From Yoonia sp. SS1-5 (GTDB lineage Bacteria; Pseudomonadota; Alphaproteobacteria; Rhodobacterales; Rhodobacteraceae): DNA of 64,000 bases. The notes beneath the pieces were generated by a model that was not told the DNA's origin, searched no databases, and was given only the letters and a program-made list of their open reading frames with translations. This document shows positions 26,839 through 37,536 of this stretch, piece by piece; positions within the stretch are counted from its first letter, which is position 1; each line of letters begins with the position of its first letter. The stretch spans positions 3,153,501 through 3,217,500 of the forward strand of contig NZ_CP151767.2 in assembly GCF_038443705.2 (NCBI RefSeq). The letters are read 5' to 3'. The position numbers and the translations under genes were made by a program.

Positions 26839-26888
26839 GGGAATTTTTCCCATTATGCCATCCTTAGTTGTGGGAATTTTTCCCATTA
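26839..26888. promoter_or_regulatory. Two identical 17-bp palindromic operator-like sites
   Basis: GGGAATTTTTCCCATTA occurs at 26839-26855 and again at 26872-26888. Each holds the hyphenated palindrome GGGAA-TTT-TTCCC, and the copies are 33 bp apart, about three helical turns. They lie between the divergent DUF6502 and adenylation-enzyme genes, the second ending 34 bp before the latter's ATG. They look like cooperative binding sites for one regulator. Confidence 0.6.
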
Positions 26889-26922
26889 GTATGCATAGTA
26901 GCGTTGGAGGAGGGCCCAATTT

Positions 26923-28533
26923 ATGCTCGATAAAAGACAAAGCACGGCAAGACGCGCCGTGTTTGATCAACCAGACATCCACAAGCCGGAAGCCTATCAG
27001 GACGTCGACAACCTGCCCGCTGACTGGTTCGCGGCATTTGGCACCGGTCCGGTTGTCGCGCCGCGGTTCGGGACCATTCCACAAGGTTTTGCCAAATTTG
27101 CCGCGCAGCAGCCCGGCGCGGTTGCTGTAACATGCGCAGATCAGTCCCTGTCTTACGGTGAACTTGATCAGGCGGCGAACCGGTTGGCCCGTGTGCTTAT
27201 GGAACATGGCGTCGCCCGCGGTGACGCGGTCTGCCTGTTCCTGACGCGATCTATTCCGATGGTTGTGGGCATTATTGCCTGCATGCGCCTTGGCGCTGCC
27301 TATGTGCCGCAGCATCTAGGCGTGGCCCCGGAGAATGCGTTGCGCACGATCCTCGGGGTCACCAAGTCCCGCGTTATCCTGACAACCGCTGCACTTTCGC
27401 CAAAGATCACCATGGCGGATGATCAGGTTGTCATCGCTATTGATGATGTCATGGCAGACGAGACGCTTGATGCGCGCCCGGTGGCCGAGCAGGCTACACC
27501 TGACGATGTCTGCATGATCCTGTTCACCTCTGGCACGACAGGCGTTCCAAATGGTGTTCAGGTCACCCAACGCAATCTTGCCAATATTCTGCTGACGGCT
27601 CCCGGGGATCTCGGTATCAGGCCGGGTCTGAAAGTGGGGCAAATTCTGTCGATTGCCTTTGATATGGCCGCCTGGGAGACACTTGGCTGTTTGTCCAATG
27701 GCGGGACGCTTGTGATCCGTGGTCGCGACATTCAGGCCACTGCAGAGGTTGTTGACGTTCTGATCGCCACGCCGTCGATCCTTGCCTCATTGGATGCGGA
27801 CCGATGCCATAACGTCCAGACTGTTGCCGTGGCAGGCGAACCCTGCCCGCGCCCGCTTGCCGACAAATGGGGGGCCTTTTGCACATTCTACAATTCCTGT
27901 GGTCCGACCGAAACGACGATCATCAACACAGCTATTCAACACACCCCGGATAAGGCCGATCTGACCATCGGCAAGCCCACCCCGAATAATACCGTCTATA
28001 TTCTGGATGACGATCTGTCCCCGCTGCCATTTGGCGAAAAGGGCGAGATGTGGGCTGGTGGTGATTGCGTCACCGCAGGCTATCTGGCCAATGACGTATT
28101 GAATGCGGAACGCTACCGCCCTGACCCCTATCGCCCCGGTGCAATGATGTTCCGGACCCGCGATCTGGGCCGTTGGACCACAACCGGCGAGTTGCGCCAT
28201 TGCGGCCGGGTTGATGACCTGGTCAAGATCAAGGGATTCCGGGTCGAACTGGACGGCGTCAGCCGCAAAATCGAAGATACAGCCGGTTGCACCCAGGCTG
28301 CGACACTCAAGTATGACAATGAAACCCTTGTGTCCTTCGTCTGCCCCGCAACAATCGCGCCGCAAGCGGCCTGCAACAGTGTGGCGGCAGGCCTGCCATA
28401 TTACTGCGTTCCCAAATTGGTGGTGCCTTTGGATGAACTGCCAAAGACCCCGCGGGGCAAGCTGGACAAGCGCAGGCTGATCAGCATGGCGCAGGACATC
28501 ATGCAAGCTGCAGAAAACGGGGCTGTCCAATGA
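26923..28533 (+). CDS. Stand-alone NRPS-like adenylation (AMP-binding) enzyme
   Basis: 536 residues; ATG is preceded by GGAGGAGGG. The adenylation core motifs are present: LFTSGTTGVPNG (A3), FDMAAWE (A4, Asp247), NSCGPTETTI (A5), GEMWAGGD (A6-like), RTRDLGRW (A7), KIKGFRVEL (A8) and TPRGKLDKR (A10, catalytic Lys513). The conserved P-loop Lys of A3 is Asn210 here. The Asp and Lys that hold an alpha-amino acid are kept, so an amino-acid substrate is likely. There is no carrier-protein (phosphopantetheine) or condensation domain, so the acyl acceptor is unknown. The stop overlaps the next gene by 4 bp (ATGA), making it the first gene of a coupled operon. Confidence 0.88.
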   Translation: MLDKRQSTARRAVFDQPDIHKPEAYQDVDNLPADWFAAFGTGPVVAPRFGTIPQGFAKFAAQQPGAVAVTCADQSLSYGELDQAANRLARVLMEHGVARGDAVCLFLTRSIPMVVGIIACMRLGAAYVPQHLGVAPENALRTILGVTKSRVILTTAALSPKITMADDQVVIAIDDVMADETLDARPVAEQATPDDVCMILFTSGTTGVPNGVQVTQRNLANILLTAPGDLGIRPGLKVGQILSIAFDMAAWETLGCLSNGGTLVIRGRDIQATAEVVDVLIATPSILASLDADRCHNVQTVAVAGEPCPRPLADKWGAFCTFYNSCGPTETTIINTAIQHTPDKADLTIGKPTPNNTVYILDDDLSPLPFGEKGEMWAGGDCVTAGYLANDVLNAERYRPDPYRPGAMMFRTRDLGRWTTTGELRHCGRVDDLVKIKGFRVELDGVSRKIEDTAGCTQAATLKYDNETLVSFVCPATIAPQAACNSVAAGLPYYCVPKLVVPLDELPKTPRGKLDKRRLISMAQDIMQAAENGAVQ

Positions 28534-29846
28534 ATACGCAGGCCGTCCACGCCCGCCCCGGGCGCCCGTTTAATATCCGCCGGATCACCCGGCATCCTTC
28601 TGTCATCGAATACCGGCGCCTCGCTGCATTGGTCGCGGTCGTCAACCTGTGGATATTCGGATCCGGAATTGCAGATGGCACCTGGATGACAGCAGGTGGT
28701 TTCGCGACTGATAAGATTGCTTTTTTGGCGCTGATCAACTTCACGCTGGGGATCATGATCCGGCAGCAACGGATCGTGAATTTCCTGTTCTGGCTGGCCA
28801 CGCGCATTCCGACCAGTTGGCCACTATGGATCAGGTGGGGGGCCGGCAAGGTCTTTCACTTTGGTGGGCTGCATTCGGGGGGCAACGTGGCAGGATCGCT
28901 GTGGTTTGCCTTTGGCCTGTTCGGGATGGGCTGGAACTGGTGGATGGGGGTTGGTCATGTGTCGGCCGGCACGTTGATACTCAGCGCGGCCATGGTTGGG
29001 CTGATGGTCGCCATGATCGTCACGGCCATTGGGCCGCTGCGCGCGAAATTCCATAACCGTTTCGAGATTGTCCACCGGTTTGCGGGCTGGACATTGCTTG
29101 GGCTGTTCTGGGGGCAATCAATGATGATCTCATCCGATGCAGGGCATGCCTTTACACAAACGACCACATTCTGGTTGCTGTGCCTGATCACCCTGTCGAT
29201 CATCTCGCCCTGGCTGACCCTCAAGAAGGTCCCGATTGAGGTTATCAAACCCTCAAACCATGCGGTATCTGTGCGGTTCAATTATGGCGACACACCGTTC
29301 GCCGGATCGTCCAACGCGTTGAGCCTTGATCCGCTGCGGGAATGGCATTCCTTTGCCAATATCCCAACCCCGGGTGAGGATGGGTACCGGTTGATCATCA
29401 GCCGGGCAGGGGACTGGACAGGGCGTTTCATCGACAACCCTCCAAGCCATGTCTGGGTCAAAGGGATCACAACATCCGGGGTCGCCCGCGTCGAGGTTCT
29501 GTTCAAGAAGGTCGTCTATGTCGGAACCGGCAGTGGCATCGGCCCGATCCTGCCGCATCTGCTGGCCCATGAGGTGCCGAACAAGCTGATTTGGTCCACC
29601 AGGTCACCCCGCAAGACATATGGGGACGATCTGGTCGATGAGATCGAACGCAACACCGAAAACCCGCTGATCTGGGACACGGATGCGCGCGGCAAGCCCG
29701 ATCTGTCACAACTGGCCTTTGATGCGGTTGCGGAAACCGGGGCGGAGGCTGTGATCGTCATTTCCAATCAAAAGCTGACGCAAAAGGTCATCTACGACAT
29801 GGAAAGCGCAGGCATCCCTGCTTATGGCGCGATTTGGGACAGTTAA
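28530..29846 (+). CDS. Membrane flavocytochrome-like reductase (ferric reductase/FNR type)
   Basis: 438 residues. About six hydrophobic segments occupy residues 28-230, with His residues in VFHFGGLHSGGN and in FHNRFEIVHRFAGW that could ligate haem as in ferric reductase/NOX proteins. The soluble C-terminal half looks like a ferredoxin-NADP reductase module: EWHSFANIP is placed like the flavin-binding HPFT motif, and VVYVGTGSGIGPILPHL is a pyridine-nucleotide site. The usual terminal CGP motif is not evident. It is coupled by ATGA to the adenylation gene, and the crotonase gene follows after 1 bp. Family assignment is by motif reading only. Confidence 0.65.
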   Translation: MNTQAVHARPGRPFNIRRITRHPSVIEYRRLAALVAVVNLWIFGSGIADGTWMTAGGFATDKIAFLALINFTLGIMIRQQRIVNFLFWLATRIPTSWPLWIRWGAGKVFHFGGLHSGGNVAGSLWFAFGLFGMGWNWWMGVGHVSAGTLILSAAMVGLMVAMIVTAIGPLRAKFHNRFEIVHRFAGWTLLGLFWGQSMMISSDAGHAFTQTTTFWLLCLITLSIISPWLTLKKVPIEVIKPSNHAVSVRFNYGDTPFAGSSNALSLDPLREWHSFANIPTPGEDGYRLIISRAGDWTGRFIDNPPSHVWVKGITTSGVARVEVLFKKVVYVGTGSGIGPILPHLLAHEVPNKLIWSTRSPRKTYGDDLVDEIERNTENPLIWDTDARGKPDLSQLAFDAVAETGAEAVIVISNQKLTQKVIYDMESAGIPAYGAIWDS

Positions 29847-29847
29847 G

Positions 29848-30612
29848 ATGTATCAGACGATTGTCACATCGGTTGCTGACCGGGTCCTGACCATTCAACT
29901 GAATCGGCCCGACACACTGAATGCGCTGAACACGCAAGTGATGGAAGAGGTCCTTGATTGTGCGTCTGGACATGATGCCGATCCTGATATCGGGTGCATT
30001 GTCCTGACGGGCAATGACCGGGCGTTTGCGGCCGGTGCTGATATCGCCGAATTGATGGTGCAGGATTACGCCAGCATGTATGCAAGCGACTTTTTCGCCG
30101 GATGGGATCGGTTTGCGGCACTGCGGACCCCGAAACTTGCCGCCGTCGAGGGCTATGCCCTGGGCGGCGGGTGCGAACTTGCGATGATGTGCGATGTGAT
30201 CATCGCCGCGGATACCGCGCGTTTTGGACAACCCGAGATCAAGATCGGCTGCATCCCCGGCATTGGCGGGACCCAGCGCCTGACGCGGCTGGTTGGTCGT
30301 GCCTGTGCAATGGACATGATCCTGACCGGCCGCATGATTGATGCTGACGAAGCCTTGCGCATGGGTCTTGTCAGTCGGGTCGTCCCGGTTGCCGATCTGG
30401 CGCCCACAGCGACAGAAATCGCAACCCGGATTGCCAAGGCGCCGAAGGATATCGCGATGATGGCCACCGCGTGCGTCAGGGAAGCAGAGCAAAGCCCGCT
30501 GAGCGCCGGCATACGTTTTGAGCGGCAGATGTATCATGCCTTATACGGATCAGCGGCCCAGAAAGAGGGCATGAGCGCATTCCTTGAAAAACGTGCGCCG
30601 AATTTTCGGTAG
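29848..30612 (+). CDS. Enoyl-CoA hydratase/isomerase (crotonase) family protein
   Basis: 254 residues starting at MYQTIVTSVADRVLTIQLNRP, one base after the previous stop; an upstream in-frame ATG at 29824 lies inside the preceding gene. The crotonase oxyanion-hole segments are AFAAGADIAEL and YALGGGCELAMMCD; the catalytic Glu position falls in PEIKIGCIPGIGGTQRL. Length and motifs match soluble hydratases. As third gene of the adenylation/flavocytochrome operon it may hydrate or isomerise an activated acyl product, although no CoA-ligase-like partner other than the adenylation enzyme is present. Confidence 0.9.
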   Translation: MYQTIVTSVADRVLTIQLNRPDTLNALNTQVMEEVLDCASGHDADPDIGCIVLTGNDRAFAAGADIAELMVQDYASMYASDFFAGWDRFAALRTPKLAAVEGYALGGGCELAMMCDVIIAADTARFGQPEIKIGCIPGIGGTQRLTRLVGRACAMDMILTGRMIDADEALRMGLVSRVVPVADLAPTATEIATRIAKAPKDIAMMATACVREAEQSPLSAGIRFERQMYHALYGSAAQKEGMSAFLEKRAPNFR

Positions 30613-32616: not shown

Positions 32617-34698
32617 TCAGCAGATCAGGCTGAGATCTTCGAAGGGAATGACGAGGATTGAGGCCAGGTCATAGTCGCTGTCTTCCTTCCGATATTTGAC
32701 GGGTGCATTTGCCTGTGCCTGGATCGGGTCGAGGATGATCGTGACCATATCGCCATCGCCCGGCACAAAGCCCTCGCCATTGGCGTGGGCAAGGGCAAGC
32801 AGTGTATCAATGTTTTCCTGCGTTCCGTTGTAGTGACCGCCAACCGCTTCTGGCATCATCAATTCAGAATTGTCGTCAGTCAGCCCCCAGATGGCATGCT
32901 GGATTTCGATTTCGGTATAATTCTGCCCGGCGCCCGCGCCTGTCGTGTCGCCGTTATTTTTCGCGGTGAAATCCTGGTTCAACAACCAATTGATCGCGTC
33001 GAGGTTTTCGACAAAATCATTTGAGAACAGGCTCGCGTCAAATTCGCCGGCCACGCCACCATAGACGTTCATGGCAACATCAATATTGGGAATGAATGCT
33101 TCGTCTCGTTCGATGCAATATGCCGCCTCGAACCGGATACCGTCGAAACGCGCATCCCCTGTTTCATCGACGCGGGATGAGTAGCCGTTTTTGATCGACA
33201 TACCGCCTTGGACCACCATTGCGGTGTCCGGCAGCGAATTGAAAATATCCGGCAAGGTGTTGCGCGCGCCATCAACTGTCATTGTGACGGTGGCGTCGTC
33301 GGTGCCGCCGCGCCCGTCGGACACGGTATAGGTGAAACTGTCGCTGACGCTGGTTCCGATCAACAGATCTGCTGCGCTCACCCCGTCAACAACAAGCGCA
33401 TTGCTGTCATATGACAAAACCCCGCCATCGTTCACAGTGACGGTTGCGCCACTATCAAGCGTGACGGTGTCGCCAATATCAACGGCAACGCCGTTCACGG
33501 CTGTCACGGCCAGGCTGTCACCATCATCCGCGTCCGTATCATTGGCCAGAACGTTGATGATGCCTGTCTCTTCGGCGCAAATGGTTGCAGCGTCATCAGC
33601 GGCCACCGGCGCCACGTTGGCGGCGACAAGACCCGCATCAACATGCTGCATATCTTCATCAGCGGACAACGAAAATGTCGCGGTACGTCCATTGCCTGCC
33701 TTGGTCTCAAACAGGACATCGCTATCAATCGTATCGTCGTCATCCACGTCGCCTGCGACAAATGTCAGCGCGCTGTCTCGGTTCACGAAGACGACCGCGT
33801 AATCATCGCCCGGCGCGATATCATCAAACCGGTAATTGCCGCTGTGATCTGTCCGCGTATGGTCGACGACCACCCCGTCCAGCAGCAGCTTGACCTTTGC
33901 GTTTGCAACAACGGAATCCGAGGCGTCCTGAACCGCATTGTCATTTTCATCAATGAAGAACGTACCACTGACGGACGCACTGGGGGCCGGTGGCACATAG
34001 CAAATGTCGTCAATCGCACCAGACCCGTGCAACGTAATCGTCATGTGTGCCACATCATCAGTGTCCAGCGGGACACGTTTCACCCCGCCATCACGCGTAT
34101 GCGGCAGTGCAATGGATTTGATCAGGTTTCCATGTGCGTCAAATAGGTCAACGCTGCCGCCCTCTTCGGTATCAATCACGGTCAGTTCGGTGACCGAAAC
34201 AGGTGACTTGAAGTCAAAACTGACGGTCCCGCCATGCCGATTGTCGTCGGGGTCGTGGCTGTCATTGTCTTCTGAGATGATCAAAACCTTGCCCTCGCGA
34301 TTATGAGCCAGGTCGTAATCCCTGCCGGATGGCCGACCCGTGTCAAAAATCATCCCGGTGCCAGGTATCAGCGTCTGATTGCCATAGTGACAATGGGTTG
34401 CGCGATGGACTTCGATCGTCACAAAATCGTCGATATTCTGAATTTTCTCACCGCGCCGGAATTCTTCAAAGTCGATCTTGACGGCGTCGGGCCCGTCGCA
34501 GGGAGGGCATTCAAAATCCGGGTGGCTGAAATCCATCCAGTCCCGACCCCAATGGCCGACATCACGATGTCCGGGCTTGCCCCAGTGACCATCGTTATCG
34601 TGGTGTGTATTTCCCCACGACCGCCCTGAATAATGACTGTCCTGCCCCATCCACTTATGTGAATGGCCACCGCCGTTGTTGTTGTGCCGGTATGTCAT
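32617..34698 (-). CDS. His-rich extracellular protein with SdrD B-like and Ig-like modules
   Basis: 693 residues from an ATG preceded by GGGGGA. Residues 2-55 are rich in His, Gly and Trp (NNNGGGHSHKW, GHWGKPGHRDVGHWG), without a classical signal peptide. A beta module follows (AVKIDFEEF ... GSGAIDDICYV), then a SdrD B-like module near 245-345 (VSGTFFIDENDNAVQDASDS), a cadherin/VCBS-like module (VAADDAATICAEETGIINVL), and a final region starting ARNTLPDIFNSLP and ending DLSLIC. Absence of an N-terminal signal suggests type I secretion or another route, but no RTX nonapeptides are seen. It shares module types with the giant repeat protein. Confidence 0.8.
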   Translation of the reverse strand: MTYRHNNNGGGHSHKWMGQDSHYSGRSWGNTHHDNDGHWGKPGHRDVGHWGRDWMDFSHPDFECPPCDGPDAVKIDFEEFRRGEKIQNIDDFVTIEVHRATHCHYGNQTLIPGTGMIFDTGRPSGRDYDLAHNREGKVLIISEDNDSHDPDDNRHGGTVSFDFKSPVSVTELTVIDTEEGGSVDLFDAHGNLIKSIALPHTRDGGVKRVPLDTDDVAHMTITLHGSGAIDDICYVPPAPSASVSGTFFIDENDNAVQDASDSVVANAKVKLLLDGVVVDHTRTDHSGNYRFDDIAPGDDYAVVFVNRDSALTFVAGDVDDDDTIDSDVLFETKAGNGRTATFSLSADEDMQHVDAGLVAANVAPVAADDAATICAEETGIINVLANDTDADDGDSLAVTAVNGVAVDIGDTVTLDSGATVTVNDGGVLSYDSNALVVDGVSAADLLIGTSVSDSFTYTVSDGRGGTDDATVTMTVDGARNTLPDIFNSLPDTAMVVQGGMSIKNGYSSRVDETGDARFDGIRFEAAYCIERDEAFIPNIDVAMNVYGGVAGEFDASLFSNDFVENLDAINWLLNQDFTAKNNGDTTGAGAGQNYTEIEIQHAIWGLTDDNSELMMPEAVGGHYNGTQENIDTLLALAHANGEGFVPGDGDMVTIILDPIQAQANAPVKYRKEDSDYDLASILVIPFEDLSLIC

Positions 34699-35094
34699 TT
34701 ATTCCCCCGTATTCGGTCGTTCCTACTAAGAAGCCATCCGTTCATTTACTCGGGGACGTCTCAATTTTGCTGAATTTAGGCGGCAAACACGCGCAGAGGG
34801 TATCGGCGGTAGATCGCTGATTGCACCGTATTGCTACGGGCTTGGCTACGTGCCTGCGGGTGCGTAGCGTTCAGGAAGCCTATTGGAAAACTGTCATAAT
34901 CGGATCTGAAGCCAGCAGGGATTGCAGCGTCGCAAAATCACCTTCTTTGATGGGTATCTCAGTGATTGCACGCTTTGGTTGCGCGCGCTACGCTGGTGGC
35001 AGATTTCCACTTTTGTAACCAAAGCCCTTTACGATCAATTGATGAACTGTGCGCCGTGGACAGACAACCATCCCAGTCAGAGGGGAATGTAACA
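34699..35094. other. 396-bp divergent intergenic region
   Basis: It separates the His-rich protein gene (minus) from the GGDEF/EAL gene (plus). No small gene is convincing. Longer readings of the GGDEF/EAL frame begin at TTG 34966 or GTG 35056 but lack a good ribosome-binding site. No clear promoter dyad was found. Confidence 0.4.
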
Positions 35095-37536
35095 TTGCAG
35101 ATCGCCTCAGCCAGCGAAACAGGCGACTACGAGGATATCGTTTCGTTGCTGAAAAGCCCTGCGGCCTTCCTGGACAAGCGGGGGTATATGCTGTGCGCCA
35201 ATGACGCGCTCGCGCAGCGTCTGGGCCTGCGGCGGGCTGAACTTGCGGGGGAATGTATTGAAACGCTGCTTAGCGAGAATGACTGGGCCGCGTATAAGCT
35301 GTTTCAGGCCCGCGCCGAACAGCAAGAGTTTACGGACCCACTTGGTGCGACATTGTTGCTTTCTGACATGGCCCAGCCGGTTCTATTCGATCCGGTCATA
35401 AAGGATGGTCAATGGCTGGGTGTTGTTTGCCAGGCCGATCACGCCAGATCGCAGGAAGACCTGCGCCTGCAATACCTGATGGAACATCTCGATCAGGGGG
35501 TCTGGGACTATGATACAGCCACAAAGAAATTTGTGGTGTCGAATGCGTGGCGTCGGATGCGCGGGATCGGACCGGACGAGGAAATCACGGCCCTCACGGA
35601 TGACTGGATGGAAACAGTCCATCCCGATGACCGTCCGCATCTGCGGAATGTCTTTCAGGGTCAGGCGCGGGGCGATACCAGCAGCATCAACATTCAGTAT
35701 CGCCGCAAACACGCGGATGGCAGCTGGGTATGGATCCTTTGCCGCGCCAATGTTGTAGAGTTTGACGATCAGGGCAGACCCGGCCGTATCGTCGGGACCG
35801 ATACGGATATCACATCCGTCAAGCAACGCGACGATGATCTGCAAAGGCTGACGCGAAAACTGCAACTCGCCATGGAGGCGTCAGGTATCGGGATCTGGGA
35901 GTTTGATCCCAGCTCGCAGAGCGTCCATTGGGACGACCGCATGCTGGAAATGTACGGTATCGAAGACGGTTGCAACGACCGTTCGGGCGAGGCGTGGGAA
36001 ACCCACCTGCATCCCGATGATCTGGAGGAGACCCTGGCATATTCCGACTATTGCCAACGCCACGGCCTTGACTTCAAGCGCGATTATCGGATCGTGCGCC
36101 CGGATGGCGGTGTCCGCCACATTCGCAGCCTCGCAACAACTGTCGCCTCACCCAAGACCAAGGGACGCCTGATCGGGGTCAATATCGACGTGACCGAGGA
36201 TTACCGCCGCAGCGCCCAGCTGGAAGGAGCGCGCGTGCAGCTTGAATATGACTCGCGGCATGACGCCTTGACCGGCCTCGCCAACCGCCGGTTGCTGGAC
36301 GAACATACCGATGCCCTGTTTGCAGCGATTGAGGATGACCGGGTCTATGGGGTCATGCATCTGGATCTCGACCATTTCAAAGAGATCAATGACACGCTGG
36401 GTCACGCGGCGGGGGATGCGGTTTTGGCGCATGTCGCCAAGACGATCAAACCGATCATCGCCGATGCCGGGCTGGTCTGCCGCATTGGCGGGGACGAATT
36501 TGTCGTCCTGATCACAAAAGATGCCACAGTCGACAATATGGCCGCCTTGTCGGGCGAGATCATGAAAGCGCTGGAGGCGCCCATCACCTTTGAAGGGCGC
36601 AGTTGTGCCTTTGGGGTCAGCATTGGCTGCGCGATTGGCAAGGGCCCATTGGCCAATCGGGCCGAAATTTTCATCAATGCCGATACCGCCCTTTATGCCG
36701 CCAAGCAGGCTGGCCGGGGGTGCTACCGCTTTTATTCCGAGGCCGTCAAAACGCAGGTCAAGGCCGAGGCAAACGCCCGGCAAGAGCTTTTGGACGCCAT
36801 ATCGAGCGACGAAATCACCTGTTATTATCAGCCTCAATATGATGCGCAGGACCTGCAGATCATCGGGGCAGAGGCGTTGGTGCGCTGGCACTGCCCCAAA
36901 CGTGGGCTCTTGCTGCCCGACGCCTTCATGCCTCTGGCCGAGGCAACCGGTCTATCCGCGGTGGTCGACGAATATGTGTTCAAACATGTCATTGCCCAGC
37001 AGACCCGCTGGTATGATGCCGACATCCGCTTTCCCAAAATCGCGCTGAACATATCACTGGACCGTCTGGCAAGTCGCGGTCTTGTTGATCAGGTCCAGTC
37101 CCTTCTTGGACCCCATCATCTGATTGCATTCGAGTTGCTGGAAACGGCCTTTATCGACAACCTGTCGCGGGCACATCTTGATACGCTTGAGGCGCTGCGC
37201 GGTCTTGGGATCAGTATTGATCTTGATGATTTTGGCTCTGGACACTCGTCAGTTGTGGCGCTTCAGGCGATCAGGCCGGACTGGATCAAGATTGATCGCT
37301 GTTTGGTGACGCCGATCACACGGCGCGAACGCCAACGTCAGACACTGCAGCATCTGTCAAAGATTGCCCGACTGGAAGGCGCAGGCGTTGTGCTTGAAGG
37401 GCTGCAGACCGGGCTTCATATCGCGGCCATCCAGGATGTTGATTGTGATGCGTTGCAGGGCTTTGCGCTTAGCCCGCCTGTTCCGGAAAAGGAATTTACG
37501 ACCCTGCTTTCCCAGCAAATCAGACAGGCCATCTGA
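35095..37536 (+). CDS. PAS-GGDEF-EAL cyclic-di-GMP enzyme
   Basis: 813 residues from a TTG start chosen because GAGGGG lies 9 bases upstream. Two or three PAS domains occupy residues about 10-400; typical phrases are LLKSPAAFLDKRGYML, RKHADGSWVWILCRANV and DYRIVRPDGGVRHIRS. The diguanylate cyclase follows with intact GGDEF near residue 465. The C-terminal phosphodiesterase has AEALVRWH near 592, LDDFGSGHSS, and LEGLQTGLH, where the usual EGVET motif carries Gln for the second Glu. No transmembrane segment is seen, so it is a cytoplasmic sensor. Both activities may be present, with reduced phosphodiesterase activity possible. Confidence 0.9.
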   Translation: MQIASASETGDYEDIVSLLKSPAAFLDKRGYMLCANDALAQRLGLRRAELAGECIETLLSENDWAAYKLFQARAEQQEFTDPLGATLLLSDMAQPVLFDPVIKDGQWLGVVCQADHARSQEDLRLQYLMEHLDQGVWDYDTATKKFVVSNAWRRMRGIGPDEEITALTDDWMETVHPDDRPHLRNVFQGQARGDTSSINIQYRRKHADGSWVWILCRANVVEFDDQGRPGRIVGTDTDITSVKQRDDDLQRLTRKLQLAMEASGIGIWEFDPSSQSVHWDDRMLEMYGIEDGCNDRSGEAWETHLHPDDLEETLAYSDYCQRHGLDFKRDYRIVRPDGGVRHIRSLATTVASPKTKGRLIGVNIDVTEDYRRSAQLEGARVQLEYDSRHDALTGLANRRLLDEHTDALFAAIEDDRVYGVMHLDLDHFKEINDTLGHAAGDAVLAHVAKTIKPIIADAGLVCRIGGDEFVVLITKDATVDNMAALSGEIMKALEAPITFEGRSCAFGVSIGCAIGKGPLANRAEIFINADTALYAAKQAGRGCYRFYSEAVKTQVKAEANARQELLDAISSDEITCYYQPQYDAQDLQIIGAEALVRWHCPKRGLLLPDAFMPLAEATGLSAVVDEYVFKHVIAQQTRWYDADIRFPKIALNISLDRLASRGLVDQVQSLLGPHHLIAFELLETAFIDNLSRAHLDTLEALRGLGISIDLDDFGSGHSSVVALQAIRPDWIKIDRCLVTPITRRERQRQTLQHLSKIARLEGAGVVLEGLQTGLHIAAIQDVDCDALQGFALSPPVPEKEFTTLLSQQIRQAI

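Follow-up and report, generated by a model that had tools for sequence, protein, structure and literature searches.

The 64,000-nt stretch of the Yoonia sp. SS1-5 genome analyzed here (contig NZ_CP151767.2, positions 3,153,501 to 3,217,500; below, the window) carries an operon of about 3.7 kb that encodes a stand-alone adenylation (A) enzyme of the nonribosomal peptide synthetase (NRPS) type (P0001), a TmpA-like membrane oxidoreductase (P0002), and a crotonase (P0003). This operon is real and widely recurring, and it is a bacterial variant of a named, biochemically unsolved fungal system. Our preferred interpretation, held tentatively and at somewhat less than an even chance, is that it represents the three-polypeptide counterpart of fungal TmpB/TmpL/NPS12 and specifies a horizontally mobile small-molecule pathway. 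The initial annotation, which a model had made from the letters of the window alone, knew of no named pathway with this set of genes; the fungal system has the same parts, as described in the sections available of three papers (PMC4804170, PMC2766074, PMC2823734). According to the open reading frames (ORFs) of the window, the three genes are located on the plus strand (Table 1), with an ATGA overlap (28530-28533) between the first and the second, and a single base (29847) between the stop codon of the second and the ATG of the third. This coupled layout and the good ribosome-binding site ahead of the first gene had been recognized in the initial annotation and are confirmed.

The gene order is not due to chance, because it recurs in the 84 loci examined. 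The loci originate from a search of 84,980 genomes, one per species, with an alignment of close relatives as the query; they comprise the best 80 of the 372 relatives found, plus four from further genomes, so that the conservation counts below describe the closer relatives. The A gene adjoins the TmpA-like gene in all 84 loci, in 82 of them by the distance rule and in two by inspection (the TmpA frame is broken in L053, and the A and TmpA frames overlap in L055). In 71 of the 84 loci, a crotonase gene lies downstream, in the same orientation and at a distance of no more than 600 bp. Of the 13 loci that remain, L045 has an incomplete crotonase gene before the contig end, the sequences of L007 and L057 stop within 160 bases, and in L038 the 757 bases available contain no ORF longer than 120 amino acids (aa); the nine others are discussed below. 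Taxonomically, the loci come from Proteobacteria, Bacteroidota, Chloroflexota, and one cyanobacterium. Rare adjacency elsewhere, combined with separate promoters here, had been named in advance as an outcome that would speak against an operon. Instead, the adjacency recurs, and a simple promoter scan yielded 3 sites versus 2.7 expected, none of them at the gene junctions.

In 10 of the 84 loci, all of them from Bacteroidota, the A enzyme and the TmpA-like protein are fused into one protein. With the TmpA part of such a fusion as the query, the best 120 of 923 matches comprise 86 A-fused proteins (one of them the query itself), 31 proteins that have a cyclic-nucleotide-binding (cNMP) domain instead of the A domain, and 3 that show the TmpA family only. 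The pairwise distances of the three proteins correlate (0.945, 0.921, and 0.899) across the 64 loci that retained all three after selection by score (83, 80, and 68 of the 84 loci for the individual proteins). Such correlations are as expected for a unit travelling together, although the shared history of the organisms contributes to them as well. The distribution of the A gene is patchy: of 25 genomes from the genus, ours among them, 2 have it, compared with 2 of 289 in a class sample and 4 of 398 in a phylum sample. The two carriers within the genus, L001 and L002, fall into different subclades of the tree, which suggests horizontal transfer. The Bacteroidota form one clade (support 99/86). 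Split frames, due to either decay or sequencing error, were observed for the A gene in L012, L029, and L035, for the crotonase gene in L035, and for the TmpA gene in L053. In viral contigs, three stretches fit the search pattern, and none of them is a relative.

P0001 matches the AMP-binding family PF00501 (E 4.8e-68), with its C-terminal domain staying below the Pfam cut-off, and it scores 305 bits against TIGR01733 of NCBIfam, just under the cut-off of 317. Its closest relatives in the PDB are gramicidin and other peptide synthetases. Scans with Pfam and NCBIfam revealed neither a carrier nor a condensation domain, in agreement with the initial annotation, which had also called attention to the Asp and the Lys that bind an alpha-amino acid and to Asn210 at the P-loop position of the usual Lys. 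These residues are present as described, and Asp247, Trp251, Lys513, and Asn210 are invariant in all 81 rows of an alignment of P0001 with 80 loci, from which four of the 84 loci were dropped (scores of at most 500 bits) and in which proteins of more than 800 aa were trimmed to the first 620 residues. P0001, as the reference row of this alignment, and P0003, as that of the crotonase alignment, are the same proteins as those of locus L001. At the pocket positions, which we take to be those of PheA, the code DMWAAASIIK is found in 48 of the 81 rows, and the pattern DMW[ASG][AI]A[SACG]I[IV]K covers all 81. The nearly invariant code and the P-loop Asn point to one conserved amino-acid substrate. 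This substrate is probably a hydrophobic or aromatic amino acid, because the code resembles the phenylalanine code DAWTIAAICK; the proposal of the Aspergillus nidulans authors for the substrate of TmpB agrees with such an amino acid. The P-loop Asn is the usual residue and not a required one, because eight of the 86 A-fused proteins carry another (5 have Lys, 2 Ser, and 1 Arg), compared with 78 that have Asn.

In a motif search for short ORFs resembling carrier proteins, the window gave no match, and 5 of the 84 loci gave a single one each, without recurrence; the neighbour clusters were built from ORFs of at least 100 aa, such that small proteins were covered by this motif search only. The A-TmpA fused proteins among the matches listed, two of which were scanned individually, have no carrier domain. 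These observations weigh against the possibility that the A enzyme loads a carrier encoded elsewhere, as an NRPS starter acting in trans, and that the TmpA-like protein and the crotonase tailor the carrier-bound residue. The same role has been proposed for bacterial stand-alone A domains of the NPS12 type, in the portion of that study available to us (PMC2823734). Moreover, our genome contains four PP-binding domains, two of them in frames of NRPS or polyketide synthase (PKS) size (2162 and 1578 aa), 1.4 Mb away from the operon, and two in small frames (80 and 91 aa). The two large frames, at C2:1723525 and C2:1729980, probably represent an NRPS/PKS locus. PP-binding domains occur in all of the 17 operon-bearing genomes searched, with 2 to 68 in each, and several genomes have many. 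However, among the five genomes that were listed completely (L026, L031, L037, L061, and L064; the completeness of the assemblies is not given), three contain small carriers only: two frames in L037 (80 and 88 aa), three in L026 (78, 108, and 117 aa), and five in L061 (up to 155 aa), altogether 10 matches in frames of 78-155 aa. The L031 genome has one PP-binding domain in a 2546-aa frame, and L064 has one in a 783-aa frame. Because at least three operon-bearing genomes do without an NRPS-size carrier, coenzyme A (CoA) would be the favoured acceptor; a fatty-acid-type carrier would also be possible. For the same reason, loading in trans, which had appeared merely unlikely before, is now regarded as distinctly improbable.

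Sequence searches of Pfam, NCBIfam, and the PDB returned nothing significant for P0002. Precomputed data list PF26733 for P0002 and the relatives shown; this family was absent from the Pfam copy scanned. The AlphaFold model of P0002 matches over its full length the fold of NADPH oxidases (NOX; SpNOX, NOX2, DUOX1, and NOX5), with six transmembrane (TM) helices and an FNR-like dehydrogenase domain. The earlier assignment to a ferric-reductase/FNR-like protein is thus correct. The additional label "flavocytochrome-like" is uncertain, because at most one haem site is predicted; the model includes an FNR/NOX-type part for flavin adenine dinucleotide (FAD). Membership in an unrelated transporter family, which had been named as a contrary outcome, is ruled out by the NOX-like fold of the model. 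At the sequence level, a profile search returned DUOX1 (E 0.021) and NOX2 (E 0.041), a weak match at the FAD region, and weak Ferric_reduct matches were found for 17 of 41 family members. In one comparison, a full-length hhalign of the P0002 profile with eight bacterial ferric-reductase-type proteins gave an E value of 1.1e-6 (reversed control, 0.29).

NADPH oxidases possess two bis-His haem sites, formed by His pairs that are spaced 13-14 residues apart in TM3 and TM5, as in NOX2. In the model of P0002, TM3 comprises residues 112-139 and TM5 residues 175-204, and His110, His115, His175, and His182 are located at or near the helix starts; the His sites would face the cytosol. In a set of 240 homologs, into which the 120 matches to the fused-protein TmpA part were entered as their last 460 residues, His115 is conserved in 237 and His182 in 225, and no conserved His exists past His115 in TM3 or past His182 in TM5. 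Because conserved His residues occur only near the starts of TM3 and TM5, the P0002 family is predicted to have at most one haem site, in deviation from the two-site pattern of NOX. From the fold search, no map at the level of residues was obtained. The full-length profile alignment agrees with haem positions at His115 and His182, and an alignment of the membrane part only places the His residues elsewhere; a mapping of haem ligands from sequence was not relied on, since the membrane part alone is not significant. If the outer haem site is truly lost, P0002 cannot move electrons across the membrane in the way NOX does, which alters its possible roles.

This point is of importance for the idea that P0002 is a small NADPH oxidase that produces reactive oxygen species (ROS) or balances redox, with the A enzyme and the crotonase serving regulation or repair. 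The NOX-like model over the full length is compatible with such a role, as is the disturbance of ROS levels upon loss of TmpL in fungi, reported in the available part of PMC2766074. But without a bis-His outer haem site, P0002 would not perform NOX-type transmembrane transfer, a cytosolic oxidase would not require a conserved amino-acid adenylation enzyme, and conidia of the A. nidulans tmpB mutant were reported not to be sensitive to oxidative stress. We consider a role in ROS production clearly unlikely.

TmpA-like proteins were also encountered in other contexts. P0327, P0328, P0330, and 28 further members of the TmpA family, mostly of about 600 aa, are fused to PF00027 in place of an A domain and are perhaps cNMP-gated oxidoreductases. 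A Pantoea piersonii plasmid (L085:8064-9239) harbors a TmpA-like gene with 45% identity and no relative of P0001 or P0003 in the 17 kb covered; it follows a gene for an MFS transporter, and a siderophore-type biosynthesis gene is 7.6 kb away. A Calothrix plasmid (L086:6387-7679) harbors another one, with 29% identity and no relative of P0001 or P0003 in the 14 kb covered.

P0003 is a crotonase, as anticipated by its earlier designation as enoyl-CoA hydratase-like. The closest solved chain in the PDB is EchA8, and P0003 scores 353 against PRK05862 (cut-off 396). Glu110 and Glu130 are each retained in 71 of 72 rows, and the misses are gaps in L035 and L052, which have broken or cut frames. Because both catalytic Glu are kept, P0003 is expected to be a true hydratase or dehydratase that acts on a thioester. 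The nearest relatives of P0003 are ordinary short-chain hydratases (PRK05862, EchA8), and the order of ligase, flavoprotein, and hydratase resembles beta-oxidation; both features would suit a catabolic module that activates an unusual amino acid or aryl acid and breaks it down, in a sequence akin to beta-oxidation, as a nutrient. Flanking transporter genes would suit it as well: an ABC-transporter ATPase family occurs in 16 of the 84 loci (median distance, 4.6 kb) and a TRAP DctM family in 10 (median, 5.3 kb). Yet inspection by eye of the 25 largest neighbour clusters, out of 492, and a scan of ten cluster examples revealed neither a thiolase nor a 3-hydroxyacyl-CoA dehydrogenase, and the fungal counterparts act in signalling, according to the parts of the papers available. 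A catabolic function thus appears hardly probable.

Two genes upstream are divergent from the operon and encode a DUF6502 protein (P0363) and a DUF5666 protein (P0364); they overlap by ATGA. These genes, and two palindromes at 26839 and 26872, go beyond the initial annotation. Of the 73 testable loci, 48 have a DUF6502 gene divergently beside the A gene; all 48 also have a DUF5666 homolog, and the 25 loci lacking DUF6502 have none. In 32 aligned rows, the DUF6502 residues S58, T64, G65, H67, R68, K69, and D70 are invariant, and the protein is predicted to be a regulator with a helix-turn-helix-like stretch, as judged by eye and not by a model. Of the 48 loci with DUF6502, 40 have a GGGA-N5-TCCC palindrome near the A gene, and the other 8 have 8-9 of 10 core positions; no such palindrome is present in the 25 loci without DUF6502. 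The stricter core GGGAA-N3-TTCCC is present in 35 of 75 loci. For these counts, loci with fewer than 300 or fewer than 1000 upstream bases and one minus-strand locus were dropped, leaving 75 and 73 of the 84, respectively. An alignment of 50 sites, the best one from each of the 48 loci plus both copies in the window, has the consensus AATGGGAA-WWW-TTCCCATTA, with 10 of 10 positions in 37 sites, 9 in 11, and 8 in 2; a best site was the top match between -300 and +150, a range in which 8 of 10 can be attained by chance. In the whole genome, there are six GGGAANNNTTCCC palindromes, two of which are the exact copies in the window. The co-occurrence of DUF6502 and the palindrome suggests that DUF6502 regulates the operon via candidate AATGGGAAWWWTTCCCATT operators. 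A literature search that covered few subscription journals retrieved nothing on DUF6502, and this link, if true, would be the first function for the family.

Several further observations concern potential regulators. Two other palindromes in the genome have the full flanks ATGGGAAWWWTTCCCAT, namely L119:793-805 (C2:1020992) and L120:768-780 (C2:1328767). One of the two overlaps an RTX-repeat ORF at its 5' end, in the vicinity of a nuoB-like gene; the other precedes a response-regulator ORF by about 360 bp. The same regulator might have additional targets at both sites. A second DUF6502 gene of the genome (C2:493252-493980) has no GGGA-N5-TCCC palindrome in the surrounding 3.5 kb. In the 13 Bacteroidota loci the crotonase gene is followed by a gene of the DUF6733 family, of which one example was typed (for example, L060:10288-11019), and a Crp-like cNMP regulator family is found nearby in 10 loci (for example, L076:5274-5927), 9 of them among the 13 from Bacteroidota, where its gene is close to the fused gene. 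Beyond the operon, the window encodes a large protein with matches to SdrD-B, Ig-like, and thioester domains (32617-34698, minus strand) and a PAS-GGDEF-EAL protein (34966-37536, plus strand).

Table 1. Features of the operon and of its upstream region, in window coordinates.
Feature	Position	Strand	Remarks
P0364, DUF5666 protein, 289 aa	25053..25922	-	PF18914, E 4.5e-10; N-terminus signal-peptide-like by eye
P0363, DUF6502 protein, 279 aa	25919..26758	-	PF20112, E 1e-24; start codon TTG
Operator-like palindrome 1, GGGAATTTTTCCC	26839..26851	.	distal
Operator-like palindrome 2, GGGAATTTTTCCC	26872..26884	.	39 bp before the ATG; 33 bp from palindrome 1
Ribosome-binding site, GGAGGAGGG	26906..26914	+	ahead of the first gene
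P0001, stand-alone NRPS-type adenylation enzyme, 536 aa	26923..28533	+	code DMWAAASIIK
Asn210 codon, A3/P-loop motif (FTSGTTGVPNGV)	27550..27552	+	replaces Lys; 81/81 aligned rows
Asp247 codon, alpha-amino group binding	27661..27663	+	81/81 rows
Lys513 codon, A10 motif	28459..28461	+	81/81 rows
P0002, TmpA-like NOX-fold membrane oxidoreductase, 438 aa	28530..29846	+	precomputed Pfam PF26733
P0002 membrane part, residues 27-229	28608..29216	+	AlphaFold helices, conservation
P0002 FNR/NOX-type FAD and NAD(P) part, residues 230-438	29217..29843	+	H273-S-F, GTGSGIGP
P0003, crotonase, 254 aa	29848..30612	+	PF00378, E 4.9e-73; catalytic Glu110 and Glu130

In the pathway that we propose for this counterpart of TmpB/TmpL/NPS12, the A enzyme would adenylate one particular alpha-amino acid, probably a hydrophobic or aromatic one, and pass the residue to CoA; transfer to CoA is assumed because no carrier is linked to the operon and a crotonase follows. 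The TmpA-like protein, as an NAD(P)H:FAD enzyme that has no more than one haem, located towards the cytosol, would then catalyze a desaturation or hydroxylation adjacent to the activated carboxylate, a redox reaction that would take place on the inner side of the membrane. The crotonase would add or remove water, or isomerize, at the resulting alpha,beta-position. Activation, flavin-dependent redox, and hydration would resemble the opening steps of beta-oxidation, performed on an amino acid. The parts themselves are established here, and the individual reactions are inferred. The product may be a small signal or a secondary metabolite, and DUF6502 might control the operon via the AATGGGAAWWWTTCCCATT operators. 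A bolder version, in which bacteria and fungi share a carrier-free "amino-acid beta-oxidation" that leads from a CoA thioester via oxidation by a mono-haem NOX-fold protein and hydration by a crotonase to a conserved signal, with DUF6502 control at AATGGGAAWWWTTCCCATT in bacteria, seems doubtful to us.

Several results weigh against the proposed counterpart and its pathway. The nine loci with downstream sequence and no crotonase (L012, L013, L021, L028, L030, L040, L050, L054, and L084) imply that the crotonase may act in trans or may be dispensable. TmpA domains exist without an A domain, both in the 31 cNMP-domain fusions among the 120 matches and alone on the Pantoea and Calothrix plasmids. 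Fifteen of the 240 homologs lack His182, a possible haem ligand, and the membrane-only profile comparison with ferric reductases is not significant (E 0.39; reversed control, 0.56). Two of the PP-binding domains of our own genome are of NRPS/PKS size, as detailed above. The association with the operator is confounded with taxonomy, since most loci without DUF6502 are not alphaproteobacterial, and it is thus suggestive. Finally, the kinship with fungal TmpL rests on architecture and published descriptions instead of an alignment; no fungal name is present among the best 120 of 923 matches to the TmpA part.

TmpB and TmpL matter for sporulation and virulence of fungi. In the bacterial operon, the same parts are separate proteins, which opens the substrate, the cofactor content, and the product to direct tests. 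In the accessible parts of the literature on TmpB and TmpL, neither a substrate nor a product is named, and the search of the literature, with its coverage of few subscription journals, revealed no bacterial TmpA operon and no product of one.

Comparison with known systems places the operon closest to TmpB of A. nidulans and TmpL of A. brassicicola and A. fumigatus (PMC2766074, PMC4804170). These proteins combine an NRPS-type A domain devoid of thiolation and condensation domains with a ferric-reductase-like membrane part, which has six TM helices in TmpL (PMC2766074), and an FAD/NAD(P) domain. Bound flavin of TmpL has been documented by spectra (PMC2766074). A gene for an enoyl-CoA hydratase/isomerase adjoins A. 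nidulans tmpB and is among the genes conserved in several Aspergilli (PMC4804170), comparable to the crotonase gene of the operon. The A-domain Asp, Trp, Gly, Ile, and Lys reported for TmpB are likewise conserved. The NPS12 study, in the part available, placed bacterial A domains (Hahella, Salinispora) within the fungal NPS12/ETP module 2 clade and called them stand-alone (PMC2823734). TmpL orthologs were described in 2009 as confined to filamentous fungi, again in the part of the paper available (PMC2766074); the A-TmpA fused proteins of Bacteroidota, with the A domain and the membrane protein joined as in TmpL, extend this architecture beyond them. In the window, by contrast, the A and TmpA genes are separate, and for this reason the operon, with its three proteins, is not classed as TmpL; a further difference is that the bacterial operon comes with DUF6502/DUF5666.

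The other comparisons concern single proteins. NADPH oxidases share the full-length fold of the P0002 model and a weak sequence match at the FAD region, but have two haem sites compared with at most one predicted for P0002, which in addition is found in a gene context with an acyl-activating enzyme. AfeA-TmpA of A. nidulans is similar in that an adenylate-forming enzyme works with a TmpA oxidoreductase, in the available description, and different in that AfeA is 4-coumarate-CoA-ligase-like, whereas P0001 is of the NRPS type. P0003 shares the family and both catalytic Glu with EchA8 and PRK05862, but it remains under the PRK05862 cut-off, and its distances track those of the A-TmpA pair. What is new in comparison with the fungal system is a NOX-fold protein with at most one predicted haem site and a candidate regulator-operator pair.

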